A stretch of DNA of 9,766 nt from Candidatus Sumerlaeota bacterium (lineage in GTDB: Bacteria; Sumerlaeota; Sumerlaeia; JAFGJS01), in assembly GCA_016928995.1 (NCBI GenBank), contig JAFGJS010000033.1, positions 1 through 9,766 on the forward strand, read 5' to 3'. The notes beneath the pieces were generated by a model. The model saw only the letters and a program-made list of their open reading frames with translations. It was not told where the DNA came from and did no database searches. Numbering within the stretch: the first letter of the stretch is position 1; each line of letters opens with the position of its first letter. Made by a program: the position numbers and the translations under genes. Below, piece by piece: positions 1-8,574 of this stretch.

Positions 1-272
1 ATGCGCCCCGTGAACGTGTTTCCATTCACCGTCAATCCGCCCACGCTCACTGTCCGGTCCGTCGTCGCGCCCGTCTGCGTCACCTGTTGCAAGGTGCCCG
101 GAATCATCCCCGCCAGGCTCTCGGTCAATGTGACGCTCGTGCCGTCGCGATCCGAGTCCAAACACAGCACGCTTACCGCGCGGCTGGTCAAGGTCGCCGT
201 AGAATACTCCGCGCCAAAGGCGCCGCCGCACATCGCCGTCAGCGCCGCAAACATCCACACTGCTCGCTTCAT
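1..272 (-). CDS. Partial secreted protein of unknown function (N-terminal 90 residues)
   Basis: The gene starts at the ATG read leftward from 272 and runs off the left edge without a stop, so only about 90 residues are visible. A strong Shine-Dalgarno (AGGAGG) lies 5 nt upstream, which fixes the start. Residues 1-21 (MKRAVWMFAALTAMCGGAFGA) form a Sec-type signal peptide with a basic start, a hydrophobic core and a small-residue cleavage site before EYS. The mature part is rich in Thr, Ser, Val and Gly (TLTSRAVSVL, TVSVGGLTVNG), which suggests beta structure. I recognise no family. It is the last visible gene of the leftward virion series, where a further tail or fibre gene would be expected. 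An export signal is odd for a tail protein, so it may be a host-interaction or conversion gene, or mark the edge of the phage region. A terminator-like hairpin lies directly upstream. Confidence 0.72.
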   Translation of the reverse strand, partial: MKRAVWMFAALTAMCGGAFGAEYSTATLTSRAVSVLCLDSDRDGTSVTLTESLAGMIPGTLQQVTQTGATTDRTVSVGGLTVNGNTFTGR

Positions 273-293
273 GTTTTCCTCCTGAAATCAAAA

Positions 294-314
294 ACGGCCG
301 CGTCAGGCGGCCGT
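294..314 (-). terminator. Hairpin plus T-tract directly upstream of the secreted-protein gene
   Basis: On the minus strand ACGGCCG and CGGCCGT form a perfect 7-bp GC-rich stem around a 7-nt loop, followed at once by TTTTTGATTT. This is the form of an intrinsic terminator. It could end transcripts of the tail gene, but it lies only about 20 nt before the next start codon, so that gene would then need read-through or its own promoter. A leader-processing or 5'-stabilising hairpin is the alternative. Confidence 0.6.
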
Positions 315-365
315 GTGAATAGCACACTGTTCGGAAATTTTTCTCATCCAACTTGCGTGATAAAT

Positions 366-516
366 GGGTCTGGGGTCTAGGGTCTAGGGTCTGGGGATGG
401 AGCGGCTATCGCCTTAAAAAAGAGAATCATCATTTCATATTTTCCCAAACATTTTCTCTTTTTTTTGGCGCGTTAGCGCCTCCAACACCAGACCCTAGAC
501 CCCAGACCCCAGACCC
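366..516. repeat. R1: long imperfect inverted repeat with 7-bp word arms (GGGTCTR)
   Basis: The left arm (366-393) is four 7-bp words: GGGTCTG, GGGTCTA, GGGTCTA, GGGTCTG. The right arm (489-516) is four complementary words: CAGACCC, TAGACCC, CAGACCC, CAGACCC. The arms pair at 27 of 28 positions. Between them is a core that begins GATGGAGC (396-403) and ends TCCAACA (481-487). It folds on itself through an A6GAGA tract (416-425) facing TCTCT8 and GGAGCGGC facing GCGCCTCC. The whole unit could form a hairpin of about 150 nt. It begins 5 nt past the stop codon of the tail-like gene. No ORF lies within it. The core closely resembles that of the repeat at 1441-1600. Confidence 0.85.
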
Positions 517-521
517 ATCCC

Positions 522-1379
522 TCACCCTTCCACAACCACGCTGACCATGAGATCCTGATGCCCGCCCGGCGCCTCGCAATAAATATAAAGACTCTCGCCA
601 GCGCTGAGGGTGAACGATCCTGTGTTGCGGCTGAAACGTTCATCGTAGTCGAGCGTCAGCAAAATCGAATGCGTTGTTGCGCCGCCCTTGGCCTCGCGGC
701 AAACGCGAATCTGCGTCGATCCGCTCGCGCCGGTCGACACGTTGCACGTCGCTTGGATTGAAACCACCTCCAGCGTGTCGCCGGCTTCCGCCTCGGGCGC
801 GATGATGAAGTCATAGCCCTCCGGCGTTTCGGCGATCACGCCCGGAAACGTCACGCTGTAGCTTGTCTTTTGCTTAACCATACTCGTCGCCGCTCCTGTC
901 TCTCCCGGATACAAATCATCCTCATACGGACTCGCGCCCACTGAGTCGTCGTCATACACGGACGGATCGCCCGCCGTGAAACGAACGCAATAACCGATTA
1001 CGCCGAACGGCGCGCGCGACACATCGAACTCCAGATCATCCTCGCGTTCCACGTAGCAGTGGCGCCAATACTCGTCGTGAAACTGGAAAAACCGGAACGT
1101 GCCGTCGGTTCCGCCGCGCAAAGCCGTCAGCATGTTCTGCATTTCCGTGCGCGCATCGCCCGCCGTGGCCGCGTTGATCTCGCCGGTCAGCTCGAAGCGC
1201 GCCACGGACTCGGAAAAAGCCTCCAGCGTCGCGCCGTCCGTCAGCGGATCGTCCGCTACGCTGCTCTGCCGGCCGCGCCAGAATCGCACGCGCGGCCCCC
1301 AATCCGGTCCATACGGCGGAAAATAATACGCGTTCGAACCGCCATAATCGATCCCCAGCCGGGGATATATCTCGCTCAT
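522..1379 (-). CDS. Phage tail/baseplate-like protein with C-terminal beta domain
   Basis: This 285-residue protein follows the gp37-like gene in the leftward series. Residues about 28-145 resemble the N-terminal region of distal-tail or tail-tip proteins: a strand-rich stretch (RVRFWRG, ARFELTGEI), a helix (DARTEMQNMLTALRG), then FRFFQFHDEYWRHCYVERED and the closing VIGYCVRFTAGDPSVYDDD. An acidic Gly/Ser/Tyr linker (142-165) leads to a second domain (about 168-285) rich in Thr, Ser and Val, reminiscent of receptor-binding or carbohydrate-binding beta sandwiches. There is no signal peptide. The start is the first ATG, with a G-rich sequence (GGGGGGAGAG) 1 nt upstream that gives a usable but badly spaced GGAG. 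Virion association is inferred from position and fold-like features. The exact role (distal tail, tail tip or fibre anchor) is unsure. Repeat R1 follows the stop and R2 precedes the gene. Confidence 0.72.
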   Translation of the reverse strand: MSEIYPRLGIDYGGSNAYYFPPYGPDWGPRVRFWRGRQSSVADDPLTDGATLEAFSESVARFELTGEINAATAGDARTEMQNMLTALRGGTDGTFRFFQFHDEYWRHCYVEREDDLEFDVSRAPFGVIGYCVRFTAGDPSVYDDDSVGASPYEDDLYPGETGAATSMVKQKTSYSVTFPGVIAETPEGYDFIIAPEAEAGDTLEVVSIQATCNVSTGASGSTQIRVCREAKGGATTHSILLTLDYDERFSRNTGSFTLSAGESLYIYCEAPGGHQDLMVSVVVEG

Positions 1380-1413
1380 GCTCTCCCCCCAATCACGATC
1401 ATAATTATGCGTT

Positions 1414-1430
1414 TGCTCTTGCTCTTGCTC
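1414..1430. repeat. Short tandem repeat of GCTCTT
   Basis: A 6-bp unit (GCTCTT) repeats almost three times just outside the left arm of R2, upstream of the tail-like gene. It has no visible coding or regulatory role and may be an arm-like word without a partner. Confidence 0.5.
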
Positions 1431-1440
1431 ATATTCTCAA

Positions 1441-1600
1441 TCGGGTTTGGGGTTCCGGGCTTCGGGTTCCGAGCTCCAGGTTCTGAGATGGAGCAGTTGC
1501 CATTAAAAATGGATTCAATTGTGATATTCCAGGCAACTTCTGTATCATATTCCAACGACGGAACCCGAAGCCCGGAGCCCGAAACTCGGAACCCGTTCCC
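1441..1600. repeat. R2: imperfect inverted repeat with GGGTTCCG-type arms and the R1-type core
   Basis: The left arm (1441-1486) is built of words such as GGTTCCGGG, CTTCGGG and TTCCGAG. The right arm (1558-1600) has the complementary words (GGAACCCGAAGCCCGGAG and onward). The best block, TTCCGGGCTTCGGGTTCCG against its partner, pairs at 18 of 19 positions. The core begins GATGGAGCAGTTGCC (1487-1501), continues with TTAAAAA, and ends TCCAACG (1551-1557). AGTTGCC pairs with GGCAACT (1532-1538). The core matches that of R1 in order and spacing, while the arm words are unrelated to R1's. The right arm runs directly into the stop codon of the gp37-like gene. Confidence 0.82.
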
Positions 1601-2091
1601 TACACCTCATCCCACTCAATTTGAGGGATCGTCACCTCGCAATCCAACCGCACCACAGCCAGCCCTTGCGCGCTCTCGATCCATTCCAGTCCGGTGAACG
1701 TCACTCCCAGCGTATCCTTATCGCCCGCCGTCAGGCGCTTGCGCCGGAGCAGCCGCAGCACGTCCTTCGCGATGTCGAATGCGCCGGGATCGGCCGACAC
1801 GCTGTCACCCTGCGCCGCATCCTCCTGTCCGCGCAGATTCAACGCCACGCACCATACGCGATAACGCAGCGTCGCATCGTCGCGCTTGAGAAACGGCCCT
1901 GCTTCGATCTTGCCATTGCGAAACGACACCACCACCGCCGGAACAGCCAGTTCCAGCGTCTCCATCAATTCCGCCGCATCGGCGCCCTGGAACGCCTCGC
2001 GCCGCTGCAGATAACCATCCTCCTGGTCCGCATCCAGCTCCGCTAACTCGCTTAACAATCCATCCTGCGCCACCGAAATCCAATCCGCCAT
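1600..2091 (-). CDS. Mu gp37-like head-tail joining protein (DUF1834)
   Basis: This 163-residue protein directly follows the gp36-like gene in leftward order, as in Mu-like phages, and its length is normal for the gp37/DUF1834 family. It opens with a helix (MADWISVAQDGLLSELAEL), then a mixed region with LAVPAVVVSFRNGKIEAGPFLKRDDATLRYRVWCVALNLRG. The internal AFDIAKDVLRLLRRKRL and the C-terminal beta run GLEWIESAQGLAVVRLDCEVTIPQ fit the family, whose members act at the head-tail connector or tail terminator. The start has GAGGTGAG a few nt upstream. The stop codon abuts the arm of R2, and a 355-bp repeat-filled gap precedes the gene. The family call rests on pattern and synteny. Confidence 0.75.
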   Translation of the reverse strand: MADWISVAQDGLLSELAELDADQEDGYLQRREAFQGADAAELMETLELAVPAVVVSFRNGKIEAGPFLKRDDATLRYRVWCVALNLRGQEDAAQGDSVSADPGAFDIAKDVLRLLRRKRLTAGDKDTLGVTFTGLEWIESAQGLAVVRLDCEVTIPQIEWDEV

Positions 2092-2149
2092 CGCCTCACC
2101 TCGACATAGTATTTAACGCAAAGACGCAGAGCCGCTAAGAACTGTCAGG

Positions 2150-2260
2150 GATGAGAAAGAGAAATAGGGGATATGGAGATATTGGAGATTATAAAAATAT
2201 TACAGCGCCATTCTTCTCGTAATCTCCAATATCCCCCTATCTCCTTTTCTTTTTTGCATC
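2150..2260. repeat. R3: inverted repeat with GGAGATATT-type arms
   Basis: The left arm (2150-2191) and right arm (2220-2260) are imperfectly complementary along their length. GATATTGGAGATTA pairs exactly with TAATCTCCAATATC. The outer ends both read GATG plus an A/G tract plus AGGGG when oriented inward. The 28-nt loop (2192-2219) contains TAAAAATATTA and GCGCCATT. The arms again consist of variants of one short word (GGAGATAT, GGGGATAT). Confidence 0.8.
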
Positions 2261-2271
2261 TTTGGTTTTTT

Positions 2272-2406
2272 CACCACAAAGGCGCGAAAGCACAAAGAAA
2301 TATTACCGGCGATTGAAATATTTATTGCATACAAACAACGCTCAATAAATTGAATCATAGATCATGCTTTATAAAAAATATCGTTGTGACTTTGTGCAGT
2401 TGTGGT
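2272..2406. repeat. R4: inverted repeat with CACCACAAAG/CACAAAG arms
   Basis: The left arm (2272-2300) starts CACCACAAAGGCGCGAAAG. The right arm (2381-2406) ends CAGTTGTGGTG. Read inward, both begin CACCACAA and contain CACAAAG or CACAA words with small offsets. A second imperfect pair lies inside: GATTGAAATATTTATTG (2311-2327) facing CAATAAATTGAATC (2343-2356). A left arm of the same type recurs at 7151-7177. Confidence 0.75.
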
Positions 2407-2446
2407 GAATAATAAATAAATTCTCTGCGCCTTTGCGTTTTATTGG

Positions 2447-2902
2447 TTAGTAGTTATCCAGGTTGCTCGCGCCGTCTTCATCGTCGCGAAACACCGGATC
2501 ATGCTCGCTCAGCGGCGTCGTGATTTCCGGCAAGCCGACTTCGCTCACATCCTCATCCGCGCCGCCCACGTCCAGACCGCCGCGCCCCTCGGCCAAGCCC
2601 TTCAGCATCGCCATCGCGTCCTCATACGCCTGCCGGTCGCGCGCCGACATCGTCTCGCGTCGCGCCTGATGCAAGTAGTATAGCGCCAGGTCCGAGGCCA
2701 ACTCCTTCACCGCAGCCGGCGCCGTCTCAAACGGCACAGTATACCGCCCGCGCAAATGCAGATCGATCACGCCGTCCGCCCGCTCCAGCGCCGCTGTCAG
2801 CACATCCGCATCCGCCGAACCATCGCCGTCCAGATCCGCCAGCCGCGCCAAACGCGCCGCTCCGATCCGCTTCTCCAACTCCGCCTGTGAACTATAACTC
2901 AT
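2447..2902 (-). CDS. Mu gp36-like head completion protein (DUF1320)
   Basis: This 151-residue protein shows the gp36/DUF1320 pattern: an opening MSYSSQAELEKRIGAARLARLADLDGDGSADADV, then VLTAALERADGVIDLHLRGRYTVPF, APAAVKELASDLALYYLHQARRE and a final basic/acidic helix (DRQAYEDAMAMLKGLAEG). Family members sit at the head-tail connector and stabilise the filled head, like gp16-type neck proteins. An acidic C-terminal tail (from about residue 112) follows. An AAGGAAAGGA Shine-Dalgarno lies 6-7 nt before the start. The capsid gene lies upstream but is separated by the plus-strand membrane gene at 3070-4407, which is unusual for this module. Confidence 0.85.
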   Translation of the reverse strand: MSYSSQAELEKRIGAARLARLADLDGDGSADADVLTAALERADGVIDLHLRGRYTVPFETAPAAVKELASDLALYYLHQARRETMSARDRQAYEDAMAMLKGLAEGRGGLDVGGADEDVSEVGLPEITTPLSEHDPVFRDDEDGASNLDNY

Positions 2903-2969
2903 ACGTTGATCCTTTCCTTCGATTCCGCCGGTTCGAAAAAGTTAAACGTGTTCCGTTCCCGCCAATGCG

Positions 2970-3010
2970 CAATTCACAATTGCCAATTGACCATTGAAAA
3001 TTGCGAATTG
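2970..3010. repeat. R5: short inverted repeat with CAATT words, no core
   Basis: The left arm CAATTCACAATTGCCAAT (2970-2987) and right arm ATTGAAAATTGCGAATTG (2993-3010) are complementary except at a few positions, and only 5 nt separate them. The arms are again made of one short word. It lies between the divergent starts of the gp36-like gene and the membrane gene at 3070. It is not next to a stop codon, unlike the other repeats. Confidence 0.75.
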
Positions 3011-3069
3011 ATGTGCATAGAAATAGCTATATTGATTTTATTGTAAATGACCTGAAGGGCTGATCCGCC

Positions 3070-4407
3070 GTGTCGCAACCGATCGCCGCACAAATCACAT
3101 TCACCCTCGTCTTCCACGCCCTCTGGTGGATCGCCGCCATATATTTCATCCGTTTACGCAAGAAATTGTACGACTACAAACCAGACAGACCGGATTTCAT
3201 TAAACTTGTCCGCCGCAGCCAACTGCTCATCATGATTCTTTATTTTGCGCTGCCATTAGTCTTGCTCGCTGTTATCCTCGGCGTTACGTTCTCCGGCCGT
3301 TCTCCCGAAGCCATACTGGGCGGCGCGCCACGCGACTTCATGCGGCTGATCTTTTTGCTGCCAATTCCATTCACCGCATCAATACTCATTCTCATCGCCA
3401 TCCTGTTTCGACAGCACAATAGATACCGTACTCCTTGCACATTTTGGCAAGTACTACGCTTATATTTCAGCATTCTGCCAATTATCGCGCTCAGCCTGTA
3501 TTTCTCCGTACAAGAATGCTTGACTTTGACCGCCTACACCCATCAGGAAATGCCAAATTTTCCGCTGCTGATTATTCTGATCGCGCTGCTTCTCCTGATT
3601 TCACTACTGCGACGCCGCATCGGCGGCGTCAAATTTGGTCTTCCTATCGAGATGGAAGCCTGTCCGCTCCGTGACGAAATCGAGCGCATCGCGCATAATC
3701 TCGGATTTCGTAAAACCCGTATTCGTATCCAGCCGATGCGCCGCCCAAATAAAATCCGCCGCAATGAAACATACAACTCCACTATTCGCATCGCCCAATG
3801 GTGGCGTAAATTCTCTCCGCAACGGTTTATTATCCCCATCGAAATCATCCAACGCTCTGAACCTGAAGCGTTCACTGCCGGACTGGCATGCGCATTGCTC
3901 CTGCACAGTCCACTGCTGGCTCCGATACATCGTTTGAAGATCTGGATTAAAAAGCACATATGGCAAGCCGCGCTTATTGCGCTATGTATGTATGCCGCCT
4001 GGTTATCCTTCAATTACTGGTTGTTCAATGACAACTCCGATCCATCCGTCATGTTTGTTACCGCTATATTCACATCACTATGCTTCCTTATTCCAATTGT
4101 ATTGCTTGCAGCGTTGGTGCTGTTGCTCGTTGACAGAAACATACGCCGGAACGGTAAAAAACGTCTGCATCTCGGTGTCGAATGCTGGATCGTCGCCGAT
4201 CCGTTCTCCAACCGCACGCCATTCGATTTTTTCCGCGCTGTGCATCATTTCAACATGGCGCTTAACCCGCAGATGAACGAACAGCAAACTGCCAGCATGA
4301 TGCTGGGCATGTCCGCTGTGCATTACTACCTCAACAATAAAATTGAATCCGAACAACGCGATGCAATCTTCGCATACCTCATGCAAAAAGCGGAAAAAAA
4401 CGAATGA
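3070..4407 (+). CDS. Polytopic membrane protein, M48 (Ste24-type) peptidase-like, lacking the zinc motif
   Basis: This 445-residue protein has about seven hydrophobic segments: near residues 11-28, 52-73, 92-113, 128-146, 165-180, 297-319 and 327-354. The cytosol-facing stretch 199-282 (PLRDEIERIAHNLGFRKTRI...SPQRFIIPIEIIQRSEPEAFTAGLACALLLHSP) lays out like an M48 domain: a helix, 'LGF', a basic strand, a re-entry strand and the helix that normally carries HExxH. Here that helix reads C274-A-L-L-L278 in place of His-Glu-x-x-His, so zinc peptidase activity is not expected. A soluble tail of about 90 residues follows. The start is GTG at 3070, because an in-frame TGA at 3061 excludes earlier starts; the Shine-Dalgarno is weak. 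It lies opposite the virion genes, divergent from gp36 and convergent with the capsid gene. The M48 kinship is my inference from layout; an unrelated membrane protein remains possible. Confidence 0.7.
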   Translation: MSQPIAAQITFTLVFHALWWIAAIYFIRLRKKLYDYKPDRPDFIKLVRRSQLLIMILYFALPLVLLAVILGVTFSGRSPEAILGGAPRDFMRLIFLLPIPFTASILILIAILFRQHNRYRTPCTFWQVLRLYFSILPIIALSLYFSVQECLTLTAYTHQEMPNFPLLIILIALLLLISLLRRRIGGVKFGLPIEMEACPLRDEIERIAHNLGFRKTRIRIQPMRRPNKIRRNETYNSTIRIAQWWRKFSPQRFIIPIEIIQRSEPEAFTAGLACALLLHSPLLAPIHRLKIWIKKHIWQAALIALCMYAAWLSFNYWLFNDNSDPSVMFVTAIFTSLCFLIPIVLLAALVLLLVDRNIRRNGKKRLHLGVECWIVADPFSNRTPFDFFRAVHHFNMALNPQMNEQQTASMMLGMSAVHYYLNNKIESEQRDAIFAYLMQKAEKNE

Positions 4408-4500
4408 CGAAAACTGATGTATTATGCTTTTGAAACACATAACCCATTCCTCACCCACAACGCACTCCGTCAACACAGCAACCGTCCGTCGTCCAACCAT

Positions 4501-4577
4501 CCCGGCATAAAAGTTTCGGAGAGAGGGAGCGCGAGGGAGAGGCCCTTTTTCAAAGGGGCCTCTCCCTCGCATTCTCC
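4501..4577 (-). terminator. T1: strong hairpin terminator-like element after the capsid gene
   Basis: GCGAGGGAGAGGCCC (4531-4545) and GGGCCTCTCCCTCGC (4556-4570) form a perfect 15-bp stem around a 10-nt loop. In capsid-gene sense the stem is followed by CTCCGAAACTTTTATGCCGGG, whose T-run is weak. The element shares its ends with T2 at 7281-7390. It lies between convergent genes (membrane protein stop 4407, capsid stop 4602), so it could stop transcription from both sides. Confidence 0.7.
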
Positions 4578-4601
4578 TTCATCCCTTCATTCCATCCATG
4601 C

Positions 4602-5543
4602 TTATGTCAACACGTCGGCCATCTTGCACGCTGCGCCGGCGGCCACGAGTTTCTGATCGTAGTAGAACGACACGCGCACCTGGTCGCCGCGTCGCGCGTC
4701 ATTGCGCCACTGCTCCACCATACGGCCTTCCGTGGCCGCGCCGCCGTTGGTCCAGGCGAACGTATAGCCCAGCGCCAAACGCCGCAGTCCTGGACGCTCC
4801 GGCACGTACGCCACGTACGCCGTGTCGCTCCACACCGCCGAGACGCTCGCTGTCTGGCCGCGCGCCGCCGTGTTCTTGAACGAACGGCCGATCAGCACGC
4901 GCTCCAGGCCGAACACCTGCGCCAGCGCCTCGCGCGTCACCACCGAAGCCTCGCCGCCCGACTGGAACTGCACGCGATCCACCAAATCCGGGTGATCCTT
5001 CAGCGCCAGGTAAACCGAATAGTCGATCACCAGCACGTTCGGCACGGCCTGCACCGCGTCGATCACCTTCTGAATCGAAGCGCTCACATCGCCCACCGGA
5101 TCGCCGTTGGTGTAATCGTCCCATTTGTTGCTGACCGTCTGCGAATTCGAAACGCCGCTCGACAGCGCCGACGCCAGCGCGATCTCCTTGTTCAGCAGGA
5201 TCTTGCCGCTGAGGAACTCCACCTTGTCGATGTCGGCCTGAATCGCCGGGTCCGCGTTCGCCCGTTCCTCATCCGCCACGATCGCCTGCAACGCGTGATC
5301 CTCGCAGAAATACGTGTCCGTCGAAGCGCCGAAGTCCGCCTCCAGCGCCTCCGCTCCGGCCGCGCGGCGATCATCGCTCTGCCGCAGGCCCTCGCGCTCC
5401 TCGTCCAACACGAAATACTTGTCGCTCTGCTTCGCCACCGGCACGACGGGAAACAGCAAGTTCGACAAAAACTCATTCCGGCCATACTGAACGCTTACGT
5501 TCGTCAAGGCCGAATCAACATGAACATCGCTTACTTCAGGCAT
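4602..5543 (-). CDS. Major capsid protein (HK97 fold)
   Basis: This 313-residue protein is the main shell subunit. It opens with a short N-terminal arm (MPEVSDVHVDSALTNVSVQY), then LFPVVPVAKQSDKYFVLDEE and a helical stretch (HALQAIVADEERANADPAIQADIDKVEFLSGKIL) like the spine helix region. The central part (VIDAVQAVPNVLVIDYSVYLALKDHPDLVDRVQF) and the C-terminal strands (RRLALGYTFAWTNGG, QVRVSFYYDQKLVAAGAA) fit an HK97-type P and A domain. Similar capsid proteins occur beside DUF2190 and gpI-type proteases in Mu-like modules. AAGGAGG lies 7 nt before the start. Upstream is a hairpin leader, and a strong terminator (T1) follows, as expected for an abundant product. The precise capsid subfamily cannot be set by eye. 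Confidence 0.85.
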   Translation of the reverse strand: MPEVSDVHVDSALTNVSVQYGRNEFLSNLLFPVVPVAKQSDKYFVLDEEREGLRQSDDRRAAGAEALEADFGASTDTYFCEDHALQAIVADEERANADPAIQADIDKVEFLSGKILLNKEIALASALSSGVSNSQTVSNKWDDYTNGDPVGDVSASIQKVIDAVQAVPNVLVIDYSVYLALKDHPDLVDRVQFQSGGEASVVTREALAQVFGLERVLIGRSFKNTAARGQTASVSAVWSDTAYVAYVPERPGLRRLALGYTFAWTNGGAATEGRMVEQWRNDARRGDQVRVSFYYDQKLVAAGAACKMADVLT

Positions 5544-5560
5544 ACCCTTGCCTCCTTCGC

Positions 5561-5601
5561 AAAATTTAAAATAAGAAAGCCCCCGTCATTTCGAGAGCCT
5601 T
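5561..5601 (-). promoter_or_regulatory. Capsid-gene leader: wobble-paired hairpin and U-rich tract
   Basis: In the minus-strand RNA, AAGGCUCUCG pairs with CGGGGGCUUU (10 bp including three G-U pairs) around a 6-nt loop, followed by CUUAUUUUAAAUUUU and then the AAGGAGG ribosome-binding site. The G-U pairs mean that only the capsid-sense RNA folds well. It may be an attenuator, a terminator of upstream transcription or a 5' stabiliser. Confidence 0.5.
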
Positions 5602-5652
5602 GGTCTTGCTTACAAAAGTTTTTTGACTTCGCCGCTCCGGCGTTATCAATGC

Positions 5653-5682
5653 ATAATAATTTCCATCATTGTTTCCGCACAA
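5653..5682 (-). promoter_or_regulatory. Possible sigma70-type promoter for the capsid gene
   Basis: On the minus strand TTGTGC (5677-5682) is followed after 18 nt by TATTAT (5653-5658), five of six matches to the -10 consensus. The position, about 110 nt before the capsid start and upstream of the leader hairpin, is sensible. The -35 box is weak, so this is tentative. Confidence 0.25.
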
Positions 5683-5791
5683 TAGCGCTAAAAATTAACA
5701 TTCTTGGCCTAAGTTCCGGCCAATCCACGCCGATAAGACCCCTAGCGCAGTCCATGCGCCTATAAATCCATAATAAGGCGGCATCGCGTAT

Positions 5792-6169
5792 ATGCTCCTT
5801 AGACTGACCATCTGTGCCGCCATCGGCTGTGGCATGGCGATGATGCTAAGCCCCGGCTCCGATGTTTTGCTCGCTCCGGTTCGGCTTGTGCAAGGCGCTA
5901 ACTCCGGCATGGAACTTCAGAACATCGCCGCTATGATCATCCGCCATTACTATGCGGATGGCGGCCAGCTCGTGCCTGAAAGCGAATTCCAGGATTTCGT
6001 GAAAAGCAACTTCAGCGCTCTGACGGAAAAGCCCGTCAACATCGATAGTTGGGGCACGCCTTACGGTTACCGCATCGTCGATGGCGGCTTTGAAGTCCGC
6101 AGCTATGGCCCTGACCGGACAGAAAACACCCCGGATGACATCGTATACCAATGGAGACCAAAAACATGA
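5792..6169 (+). CDS. GspG-pseudopilin-like secreted or anchored protein
   Basis: This 125-residue protein has a hydrophobic N-terminus (LLRLTICAAIGCGMAMML, 2-19) that could be a signal peptide or anchor, then a helix (ELQNIAAMIIRHYYADGG, 41-58). Its C-terminal motif strongly resembles the end of type II secretion major pseudopilins: DSWGTPYGYRIVDGG (85-99) and SYGPDRTENTPDDIVYQW (104-121). In GspG these positions hold the calcium-binding loop (D-WG-PY... GPD...DDI). The usual prepilin cleavage site (G followed by F/M-T-L-I-E) is missing, so it is not a classical pseudopilin; it has only the C-terminal domain type. The ATG at 5792 is the best start, since an in-frame TAA at 5774 excludes most of the region upstream; the Shine-Dalgarno is weak. 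It overlaps the next gene by ATGA, which indicates translational coupling. Confidence 0.72.
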   Translation: MLLRLTICAAIGCGMAMMLSPGSDVLLAPVRLVQGANSGMELQNIAAMIIRHYYADGGQLVPESEFQDFVKSNFSALTEKPVNIDSWGTPYGYRIVDGGFEVRSYGPDRTENTPDDIVYQWRPKT

Positions 6170-6591
6170 GCAAAGATAACCGCCGCCGGCAATTCATCAT
6201 TAATCCACGCGCTCAGTGGACCTATGTCCTGCGCATCATCGCCCTGGAAATAAGCGTCGCCATCGTCGCCACGCTTCTCACCGCCACCACGACCGTGCTC
6301 AGTCTGCAAAGCGACACCGGCGGCATGATCCAGCCCTACGGCTACTGGCACAATCTCATCGCATCCAGCGTTTTCCTCTGCCTCATCCTCGCCGCCGGAC
6401 TTATCTTCATCGGGATTCGCATCTCGCATCAGATCTTCGGACCGGCCTATCACATCCAGCGCGTCTTTCTTGAAGCTTTGGCCAACCAGGAGATTCCCAG
6501 CAAAATTCACCTCCGCGAACACGACGAGTTTCACGACGTCGCCCAAACGATCAACGCCTGGATCGACGCGCAGAAGGACAATCGGCAATAG
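6166..6591 (+). CDS. Two-TM HAMP-like membrane protein
   Basis: This 141-residue protein starts at the ATG of the ATGA overlap with the pseudopilin-like gene; GGAG lies 9 nt upstream. An ATG 15 nt earlier is possible but has no better ribosome site. After a basic start (MSKDNRRRQFIINPRAQW) there is TM1 (about 20-46), a short outer loop (47-62) and TM2 (about 64-84). Then comes a HAMP-like region: ISHQIFGPAYHIQRVFLEAL (86-105), a connector and REHDEFHDVAQTINAWID (117-134) with the DE of the second helix. No kinase, cyclase or methyl-accepting domain follows, so it is a stand-alone HAMP unit. It probably acts with the pseudopilin-like product at the inner membrane; the signal it senses is unknown. 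It converges on the decoration gene. Confidence 0.72.
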   Translation: MSKDNRRRQFIINPRAQWTYVLRIIALEISVAIVATLLTATTTVLSLQSDTGGMIQPYGYWHNLIASSVFLCLILAAGLIFIGIRISHQIFGPAYHIQRVFLEALANQEIPSKIHLREHDEFHDVAQTINAWIDAQKDNRQ

Positions 6592-6667
6592 ACATTGGAC
6601 GCTGGAGTGTAGAATCCATAGTCCATAGTCTAGAGTCTAATGTCCATAGTCCACAGTCCATCGTCCC
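6590..6667. repeat. R6: word repeat with GTCCATA/GTCTA arms
   Basis: The right part (6618-6667) is a run of words such as ATAGTCCATAGTCTAGAGTC, GTCCATA and GTCCACAGTCCATCGTCC. The left part (6590-6612) has inverse-sense words (TGGACGCTGGAGTG), giving a weak inverted repeat without a core. The right part touches the stop codon of the decoration gene, and the left touches the stop of the HAMP-like gene, so it fills the whole convergent gap. Confidence 0.7.
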
Positions 6668-7078
6668 TTACGCCGGCACGCTTTGCGTTCCGCGCGCGAT
6701 CATCACCGGAATCACATCGCCATCCGCCGACGAAGCCGCCAGCGCAATCGCGCCGTACTCCTCGCCATCCGCCGCTGACTTCACGCCCATACCGTCCGCG
6801 TCGCTTTTCAACCGATCACCCGCGGCGATCGCCGTGCCGCTGCCGTCCACCTCGAGGAAGCATACGCCCTCCAGGTTCACGCCCACGGTGCGATCCGCCG
6901 CCGCCGTGCTTTCATACGTCACGCCCAGCGCCAATTCGCCCGCGCCTGCCAGCGCCACGACGGTCTCCGCCGCCGTCGAATTGCTCGCATCCACCGTTAC
7001 GAAGCGATACGCGCTGATCGTCGAATCCGAACATTTAAACCCCGCCTGACGCGTGGCTTTTCCCTCGCTTGCGCTCAT
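6668..7078 (-). CDS. Capsid decoration protein (DUF2190-like)
   Basis: This 136-residue, Ala/Gly/Val-rich, cysteine-poor protein lies between the protease and the capsid gene, the usual place of DUF2190 capsid cement proteins. It shows their pattern: strands such as YRFVTVDASN, ELALGVTYES and TVGVNLEGVCFLEVDGSG. Then comes TAIAAGDRLKSDADGMGVKSAADGEEYGAIALAASSADGDVIPVMIARG, with the typical 'AAGD-LK-D--G' turn. Such proteins bind the outside of the shell and strengthen it after expansion. GAGGAGG lies 6-7 nt before the ATG. A hairpin leader with a T-rich tract lies upstream, and repeat R6 abuts the stop. There are two plus-strand genes between it and the capsid gene. Confidence 0.78.
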   Translation of the reverse strand: MSASEGKATRQAGFKCSDSTISAYRFVTVDASNSTAAETVVALAGAGELALGVTYESTAAADRTVGVNLEGVCFLEVDGSGTAIAAGDRLKSDADGMGVKSAADGEEYGAIALAASSADGDVIPVMIARGTQSVPA

Positions 7079-7090
7079 TGCACATCCTCC

Positions 7091-7121
7091 TCAAAATAAA
7101 ATAAGCGGACGCCATGTCCGC
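7091..7121 (-). promoter_or_regulatory. Decoration-gene leader: hairpin and T-rich tract
   Basis: GCGGAC (7105-7110) and GTCCGC (7116-7121) form a 6-bp stem with a 5-nt loop. In gene sense it is followed by TTATTTTATTTT and then GAGGAGG. The layout is the same as upstream of the capsid gene and the left-edge gene. Confidence 0.5.
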
Positions 7122-7150
7122 CAAAGTAACACTCGAAAACCAAAAATGAT

Positions 7151-7232
7151 CACCACAAAAACACAACGACACAAAGAACCGATTTCTTTATATGCGCTGT
7201 TATACTATTCAAAATAATCAGTTCTCTGCGTT
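7151..7232. repeat. R8: decayed or composite repeat with R4-type left arm and outer-type right arm
   Basis: The left sequence CACCACAAAAACACAACGAC...ACAAAG (7151-7177) matches the R4 left arm (2272-2300). The right sequence TTCTCTGCGTT (7222-7232) matches the outer right arm at 2421-2439. The two do not pair well with each other, so this looks like a worn or mixed copy. Confidence 0.55.
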
Positions 7233-7280
7233 ATCCTACAACCAATCCTTCAACTCGAACAAATGTCCGTCCTCCATCCA

Positions 7281-7390
7281 TCCCGATATAAAAGTTTCGG
7301 GAGCGAAACAGTCCGGTGGACTGTTTCGCAATGCGGTTGCCGCTTTTGTTTCGTCCCTTTCCAAGGGGGCCTCTTTCCCGCAATCTCTTC
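7281..7390 (-). terminator. T2: terminator-like element after the protease gene, with exchanged stem
   Basis: GCGAAACAGTCC (7303-7314) and GGACTGTTTCGC (7318-7329) form a perfect 12-bp stem with a 3-nt loop. A smaller hairpin, GCGGTTGCCGC, lies at 7333-7343. The ends match T1: in minus sense a GGGAAAGAGGCCCCCTT block lies near the protease stop, and CCGAAACTTTTATATCGGGA lies at the far end. The stem differs entirely from that of T1. It probably ends protease transcripts. Confidence 0.6.
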
Positions 7391-7401
7391 AATCCTTCCC
7401 G

Positions 7402-8067
7402 CTACACTTCCCGCGACACAGCCGCCAGCGCCTCGGCGAAACTCGCCCCCGGATGCTCCTCAATCCACGCCTCCGCGCGTTGCGACAGCTCCAGTGAATC
7501 CAGTGATGCCTCGCGCGGACTTGCTCCCGTAGATGCGAATCGCTCTGAACCCGCGCCAGCCAACTCGCCGAAGCGCACCACGCCCGGAGTTGATTCCAGC
7601 ACGCGCCTCAGCGCCTCGCGCGCCGAAGAGTCGCCCTCGCCGAACGACACATGCAGCCGACCCAGGCCGTCGTGCAAATCCACTACGCCCTGTTCGATCC
7701 ATGCCCCCACCGGCTTTCCCAGCTCCCGTTGCGACTCCAGGAACCGCTCGAACTCCTCGCGCTCACGCTCACGCTGCAACACCTTCAGCTCCTGCCGCAG
7801 CAAAGCGTTCTCCGTCCGCGCCGCCATCGCCTTCGCTTCGTGCTCCGCGAATGAAGCCGCCACCTCCCGCTCCTGCTTTTGTTCGAAGCAATCCTCCGCC
7901 GCCGGTTCCACATTCACATTTTCCGCAGCACCCGCATTTTCCTCCGTCACGCCTGCTGCATCCTCTTCCGGCTCTTCCACTCTCGCGGCCACGCTCCCGT
8001 CATCCGTAACGTCCACCGCATCCGCCGCAGCAACGCCCGGATCTGAATCCAGCTCCCCCTCGCTCAT
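7402..8067 (-). CDS. Probable nested scaffold protein from an internal start in the protease gene
   Basis: Met169-Met170 of the protease (codons at 8070-8065) are preceded by GAGGTG (8074-8079), which lies 3 nt before the first and 6 nt before the second ATG. Starting at Met170 gives a 221-residue protein holding only the acidic region, the coiled coil and the C-terminus, that is, the scaffold without the protease. Mu makes its scaffold (Z) from an in-frame internal start in gene I, so this is the expected arrangement. The evidence is the ribosome site and its position exactly at the domain border; use of the start is inferred. Confidence 0.5.
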   Translation of the reverse strand: MSEGELDSDPGVAAADAVDVTDDGSVAARVEEPEEDAAGVTEENAGAAENVNVEPAAEDCFEQKQEREVAASFAEHEAKAMAARTENALLRQELKVLQREREREEFERFLESQRELGKPVGAWIEQGVVDLHDGLGRLHVSFGEGDSSAREALRRVLESTPGVVRFGELAGAGSERFASTGASPREASLDSLELSQRAEAWIEEHPGASFAEALAAVSREV

Positions 8068-8574
8068 CATCGCCACCTCGTCCGTTTCGATCATTGGCGT
8101 TTCGCATTTCGAATTTGTTTCGGATTTCGGATTTGGAATTTCGAATTTAAACTCCAGGTACTCCCCCTCATCCTCACGAAACTCCACGTCGCGCAAACCC
8201 TTCACCGCCGGCGCCGCCGCGCCCAGCAACGCCACCGCCCGCAAATACGGGCCGCGCCCCAGCAAATCCCGGTAGAGCTCCACGCTCCGCTTCTTGAACG
8301 CCCCGCTGCGCAGCGCCTTGGTCAGCCAATCCGCCGCCTGCGAAAGCCGCGCCAGCAGCAGCGTCCCCTCCGCCTTCAACTCCGCCACCCACGCGCCCGC
8401 CGGACCGCCGTCCCCGTGATCCAGTTTCACCGGCGCCTCATGAAACTTCGGATCATAGTTCTCCGCGATTCGCCGCACCTCATCCGCCGACACGGGCCAC
8501 TCCCGCCCATGCCCCGCCGCGTCAAACACCTCGATCCACCGCCCCTCCAAACCATCCGCCTTAGCCACGCCCAT
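7402..8574 (-). CDS. Mu gpI-like capsid maturation protease with C-terminal scaffold region
   Basis: This 390-residue protein has the Mu-like prophage I protein layout. Residues 12-128 are the protease domain: WIEVFDAAGHGREWPVSADEV, RRIAENYDPKFHEAPVKLDHG with H53, GAWVAELKAEG, then LRSGAFKKRSVELYRD with S97 and GPYLRAVALLGAAAPAVKGL. H53 and S97 may be the catalytic pair, by analogy with other herpes/HK97-type assembly proteases; this is inference. Residues 141-159 are encoded by a low-complexity word repeat. Residues 170-230 are acidic and Ala-rich, 231-285 form a probable coiled coil (KQEREVAASFAEHEAKAMAA...), and 286-390 end the scaffold part. It cleaves scaffold and prohead proteins during capsid maturation. 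AAGGAGGT lies 8 nt before the ATG. No separate scaffold gene is present, which fits a fused or nested scaffold. Confidence 0.87.
   Translation of the reverse strand: MGVAKADGLEGRWIEVFDAAGHGREWPVSADEVRRIAENYDPKFHEAPVKLDHGDGGPAGAWVAELKAEGTLLLARLSQAADWLTKALRSGAFKKRSVELYRDLLGRGPYLRAVALLGAAAPAVKGLRDVEFREDEGEYLEFKFEIPNPKSETNSKCETPMIETDEVAMMSEGELDSDPGVAAADAVDVTDDGSVAARVEEPEEDAAGVTEENAGAAENVNVEPAAEDCFEQKQEREVAASFAEHEAKAMAARTENALLRQELKVLQREREREEFERFLESQRELGKPVGAWIEQGVVDLHDGLGRLHVSFGEGDSSAREALRRVLESTPGVVRFGELAGAGSERFASTGASPREASLDSLELSQRAEAWIEEHPGASFAEALAAVSREV
8097..8151. repeat. R7: ATTTCG word repeat inside the protease coding sequence
   Basis: A run of TTTCGAA, TTTCGGA and ATTTGGAA words encodes protease residues 141-159 (EFKFEIPNPKSETNSKCET) in frame. 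It sits in the linker between protease and scaffold parts. Its base composition is sharply more AT-rich than the GC-rich gene around it. The words resemble those of intergenic repeat arms. Confidence 0.75.

Follow-up and report, generated by a model that had tools for sequence, protein, structure and literature searches.

We propose that two hairpins, R1 and R2, in the genome of a Candidatus Sumerlaeota bacterium belong, as ORF-less (MITE-like) copies, to a family of mobile hairpin elements that at full length carry a PF05635 gene (23S rRNA-intervening-sequence/four-helix-bundle protein, here IVP) or other cargo. We give this reading a probability of about two in three and hold it less surely for R2 than for R1. 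A full-length element would run from an inverted tandem-word arm through a short subterminal hairpin core to the IVP gene or other cargo, and out again through a second core and arm. The proposal is based on a full-length copy in the same genome, arms at most sampled IVP genes, arm words that track the IVP protein, insertions between genes next to stop codons and two sister sites that are empty. The window, which is the whole stretch of 9,766 nt that was analysed, is the entire contig C76 of a 4.55-Mb MAG.

First, we find that R1 and R2 are true hairpins, as a sequence-only reading of this DNA had held. The predicted RNA minimum free energy is -98.9 kcal/mol for R1 (366-516; z -14.1 against shuffled sequence) and -82.5 for R2 (1442-1595; z -7.5), and both have complementary borders that give a long stem, as IVS/IVP elements have. 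In Rfam the hairpins gave only sub-threshold matches to microRNA hairpins, which we regard as chance. Their parts, with arm limits from the inverted-repeat listing of the window (approximate for R2), are:

366-395, + strand: R1 left arm, (GGGTCTR)4 followed by GG, G-rich toward the inside
396-420, + strand: R1 left subterminal core, GATGGAGCGGCTATCGCCTTAAAAA (family consensus GRTGGAGCGGCTNNGCCGC)
421-465, no strand: R1 loop, AT-rich and without a gene
466-487, - strand: R1 right subterminal core, inverted (reverse complement GTTGGAGGCGCTAACGCGCC)
488-516, - strand: R1 right arm, complementary heptads; edge 5 nt beyond the stop codon of the gene at 522-1379 (- strand)
1442-1486, + strand: R2 left arm, made of degenerate heptads (GGGTTTG/GGGTTCC/GGGCTTC/GGGTTCC...) whose register to the core equals that of R1
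1487-1557, + strand: R2 core, starting GATGGAGCAGTTGCCATTAAAAATGG and ending ATATTCCAACG, alignable to the R1 core
1558-1595, - strand: R2 right arm; edge 4 nt beyond the stop codon of the gene at 1600-2091 (- strand)

The common core is also borne out. Aligned in the same orientation, the two cores score 41 against 18.5 +/- 3.6 for dinucleotide shuffles (0/300 reach 41), and with their common GATGGAGC start removed they score 31 against 18.9 +/- 3.4 (P = 0.003). The reverse-complement alignment stays at chance level, so that the cores do share an orientation, as had been claimed, although the R1 core is nearly palindromic in itself and this orientation therefore depends on a slight asymmetry of its ends. 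To call the arm words unrelated, however, was too strong: both arms consist of period-7, G-rich GGGTYYN tandem heptads, (GGGTCTR)n in R1 and a degenerate GGGTYYN series in R2, and in both hairpins the last heptad ends 2 nt before GATGGAGC. With a core model built from the other contigs of the genome, the R1 ends rank 1st and 2nd of 19,502 window positions and the left end of R2 ranks 7th, which makes the family membership of R2 the weaker of the two. R2 resembles R1 but only weakly the remaining family members, and a blastn search of the same genome found no second copy of its core.

Second, the core occurs at further loci of the genome and again between complementary arms, as the same reading had predicted for a search outside the window. 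The genome holds nine PF05635 matches, seven of them above the curated cut-off. One of these genes (E 2.9e-35) lies between GGGTCTR arms at C104:12126-12723, with GATGGAGCGGCT directly inside each arm. This is a full-length element with the R1 core at both ends, and because it places the arm word and core of R1 around an IVP gene, R1 is best seen as the same element minus the gene. The R1 arm word GGGTCTR occurs at about 16 loci, of which nine are pairs, all convergent (G-rich toward the inside), and seven are single arms with no clear mate. ORF-less sisters of R1 lie on C110, C115 and C127, whereas other elements carry a DUF6882 ORF (C37) or ORFs without family assignment (C109 and C137); the C37 locus (L203, about 610-1360) seemingly has two successive right-arm-like arrays, as if elements had inserted side by side. 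The pattern GGGTCTNGGGTCT has 46 matches in this genome against 5 for its reversed control, and at most one in each of 30 class relatives, GGGTCTR copy numbers being pattern matches only. As in MITEs, then, several ORF-less copies (R1, C110, C115 and C127) share their ends with a gene-bearing one (C104); no transposase was found in the gene-bearing copies, which carry IVP, DUF6882 or other small ORFs. Neither R1 nor R2 contains an IVP (PF05635) ORF, and we therefore class them as derivatives and not as IVS elements; they lie not in 23S rRNA but between phage structural genes. The seven IVP elements read in this genome have differing words (for example AGGCATYR, GGGTCTR, CGTTCT, AATCCT and AAATYCG), and for one of them (L012) no matching second arm was found.

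Third, inverted tandem-word arms accompany IVP genes at large. Among 108 IVP loci from this genome, its class relatives and named genomes of many phyla, 78 have an inverted repeat across the gene (score at least 34), compared with 0/138 shifted controls and 33/855 swapped flanks; about a quarter of the IVP genes at these loci have no detectable arms. The 80 arm pairs that we characterised, taken from a wider search, have a unit period of 6-8, mostly 7, with the arm G-rich toward the inside in 72/80 and with words that include GGGATCG, GGGAGTC, GGCAGTC, GGGTGTA and GGGGCTA. Hence the observation that arms vary in word and remain self-complementary extends to many lineages. A reading of such arms as products of chance or as ordinary parts of the host genome (terminators, or simple sequence repeats pairing by accident) has some appeal in that G-rich heptamer repeats are frequent in some bacteria (PMC4692102), but it is extremely improbable in view of the shifted controls, the 46 versus 5 pattern matches, the many loci with the core and the empty sites described below. 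Wherever we read the flanks of an IVP locus, and in annotated plasmid cases considered for gene context only, the locus lies among protein genes and not in 23S rRNA. IVP genes sit within CRISPR operons on a plasmid of Anabaena sp. 90 (L239) and on one of Picosynechococcus PCC 7003 (L240); their neighbours are cas6 and cas4 in one case and cas10 and a cmr3-family gene in the other. No IVP match was found in phage records, and viral contigs gave one IVP relative.

The arm words are inherited along with the protein. Arm similarity increases with IVP protein identity, and at 70-80% identity it reaches 0.51, compared with 0.17, the chance level, for the DNA flanking the arms (the 28 nt directly inside and the 28 nt directly outside). 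Since the arms are conserved with the IVP and the adjacent DNA is not, the words appear to be inherited and constrained with the protein and not, as the earlier reading had supposed, freely rewritten around the core; within this genome, too, one word has been passed on to about 16 loci. The same result bears on the idea that the arms are the product of a reverse transcriptase or another polymerase, for example a DGR-like reverse transcriptase with an Avd-like IVP. Consistent with this, the genome has one RVT_1 gene, and IVP is distantly related to the DGR accessory protein Avd (a weak bAvd match, E 1e-4). However, words that are inherited with the protein speak against it, as does the finding that genomes with 3-9 IVP matches (G001, with nine, G003, G006 and G023) have no RVT_1 match, so that the reverse transcriptase that a DGR needs is absent from several IVP-rich relatives. 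We consider this explanation very unlikely, and the gene that the elements have in common is the four-helix-bundle IVP and not the polymerase or reverse transcriptase that had been anticipated.

Fourth, the elements behave as insertions. Two orthologous operon junctions lack both element and arms, namely those of L063 (G009) in G016 and of L057 (G030) in G007, and at L063 the arm starts 2 nt downstream of the stop codon that ends the upstream gene. No transposition event was observed, and no target duplication was recognised at these two empty sites, where the intergenic DNA of the sister genomes has diverged too far for comparison. A stop codon lies entirely outside the arm and 0-6 nt from its edge in 24/80 IVP elements, compared with 3.8% of displaced edges (P about 1e-15), and at -8 to +6 nt in 44/80 IVP elements, 12/16 GGGTCTR loci and 1/19 Y1 elements; R1 and R2 lie 5 and 4 nt beyond stop codons. 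Stop-adjacent edges are upstream in 20 cases and downstream in 6, mostly a gene-sense orientation. All distances refer to stop codons only, start calls being biased, and the preference for stop codons may in part reflect selection against damage to ribosome-binding sites.

These positions also help to judge whether a Y1 (IS200/RAYT-type) transposase moves the elements in trans in a REPIN-like manner. In favour of this, 9 Y1 matches are present in the genome, and IVP matches are often numerous in class relatives that are rich in Y1. Nevertheless, the position next to stop codons is not common to Y1 elements (1/19), and the 20 Y1 loci examined have palindromic ends of their own without tandem words. 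A terminal palindrome common to R1-type and Y1-encoding elements was not found, the Y1 palindromes being distinct and non-tandem, and G023 has 5 IVP matches and zero Y1, which together make a role for Y1 unlikely.

The two arms of an element are more alike than a common word would need. In a test of in-register matches against unit-shuffled arms, 34 of 44 informative elements have variant units mirrored between their arms to a degree above the mean of the shuffles (Wilcoxon P 3.5e-7), P values for single elements being mostly modest or not significant. Arm mismatches on the gene-sense strand comprise 85 G-U and 92 A-C, and thus give no sign of RNA-level selection that tolerates wobble pairs. 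These data bear on the view that the arms act as RNA: like the intervening sequences of 23S rRNA, they would fold into a hairpin that RNase III cuts, and they would stay complementary because selection favours an insert that is cleanly removed from operon transcripts or insulated within them. This is possible but doubtful: the Coxiella IVS is such an S23p-encoding, stem-bordered and RNase III-excised element (PMC4990558), insertion just past stop codons in operons and mostly in gene sense fits transcription of the element, and R1 and R2 are strong RNA folds, but selection on RNA should have left an excess of G-U over A-C, and mirrored unit order exceeds what pairing a common word requires. We believe that mirrored units and the absent G-U excess may instead point to symmetry that is kept at the DNA level, although the mirroring could also stem from a single duplication event or from hairpin selection and not from ongoing correction. 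Of the proposed copying origin of the arms, a DNA-level symmetrising process thus fits the data but is unproven, and free rewriting is not upheld.

The surroundings of R1 and R2 are rich in similar repeats. Positions 3-8574 of the window encode phage head genes on the - strand (Mu-like gp36/gp37-like, major head protein, cement/scaffold and head maturation protease), and because this cluster is cut at nearly every junction by hairpins or by family-less + strand genes (3070-4407, 5792-6591), it resembles a prophage that has decayed or been heavily invaded. Tandem-word arrays at 2963-3012 (AATTGNN) and 8100-8148 (AAATYCG) have the words that flank two other IVP genes of this genome (L012, L013). 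Directly outside the left arm of R2, at 1413-1440, lies a GCTCTT array, a word that also occurs near the GGGTCTR elements of C105 and C161, which suggests nested or adjacent insertions. Two more inverted repeats with word-like arms (GGAGATAT at 2156-2255; CACAAAG words at 2267-2412) share one 350-nt intergenic stretch, and a second dispersed repeat, an ATAAAAGTTTCGG ... GGGGCCTCTY hairpin, is present at 4479-4584 and 7260-7395 in two copies that are 76-85% alike.

As to how the elements move and keep their arms symmetric, we infer the following. The arms would be the ends recognised by IVP or a partner, and R1 and R2 would be mobilised in trans. Complementarity may be kept by foldback or template-switch correction at the DNA level, one arm being copied from the other, while slippage would alter the number of units and the spread of rare variants could then give rise to new words. 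More broadly, and only tentatively, mobile hairpins of bacteria might form one widespread class with IVP as its sequence-specific core. Each IVP lineage would read its own heptad, insert elements at stop codons and move, in trans, both diverse cargo and copies without an ORF; foldback copying of DNA would keep the two arms identical, and protein and word would co-evolve. We know of no catalytic activity of IVP proteins; relatives with solved structures are 2GSC and 2RLD. IVP/S23p proteins are common and have been described as without known function (PMC4990558), and their link to lineage-specific arms, ORF-less relatives, cargo and stop-adjacent insertion gives them a testable role as the arm-binding component of a mobile element. 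S23p-encoding IVS with complementary ends and G-rich heptamer repeats are both known already; in a search of the open-access literature we found no paper that connects inverted heptad arms outside rRNA with IVP genes. This link may account for part of the heptamer repeats in Xanthomonas and Nostoc and of those in the Coxiella IVS.

Finally, the family is partially similar to several known systems. Like the 23S rRNA IVS of Coxiella burnetii (PMC4990558), which has tandem heptamers (GACAGAT) upstream of its ORF in numbers that differ between strains, the full-length relatives of R1 and R2 encode the same protein family, measure about 430-600 nt and have complementary border arms. In contrast, R1 and R2 lack an ORF and lie between protein genes, and here the arms are mirrored arrays of many units in a copy family with common ends and other cargo. 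The GGGAATC/GGGGAYT heptamers of Xanthomonas and Nostoc likewise form intergenic G-rich heptad arrays, with 70-75 convergent inverted pairs in Xanthomonas, but they are treated as G-quadruplex repeats in a paper that mentions neither 23S, S23 or intervening sequences nor four-helix proteins (PMC4692102). The P6b stem of the Nostoc trnL intron is built from one of two 7-nt words and keeps its pairing despite the difference in word (PMC4476775), although it is part of a group I intron and not a dispersed IVP element. Moreover, MITEs and REPIN/RAYT systems are also short, ORF-less inverted-repeat elements with a gene-bearing relative, whereas the terminal repeats described here are tandem words that differ from Y1 ends, and the gene-bearing form carries IVP in place of a transposase.
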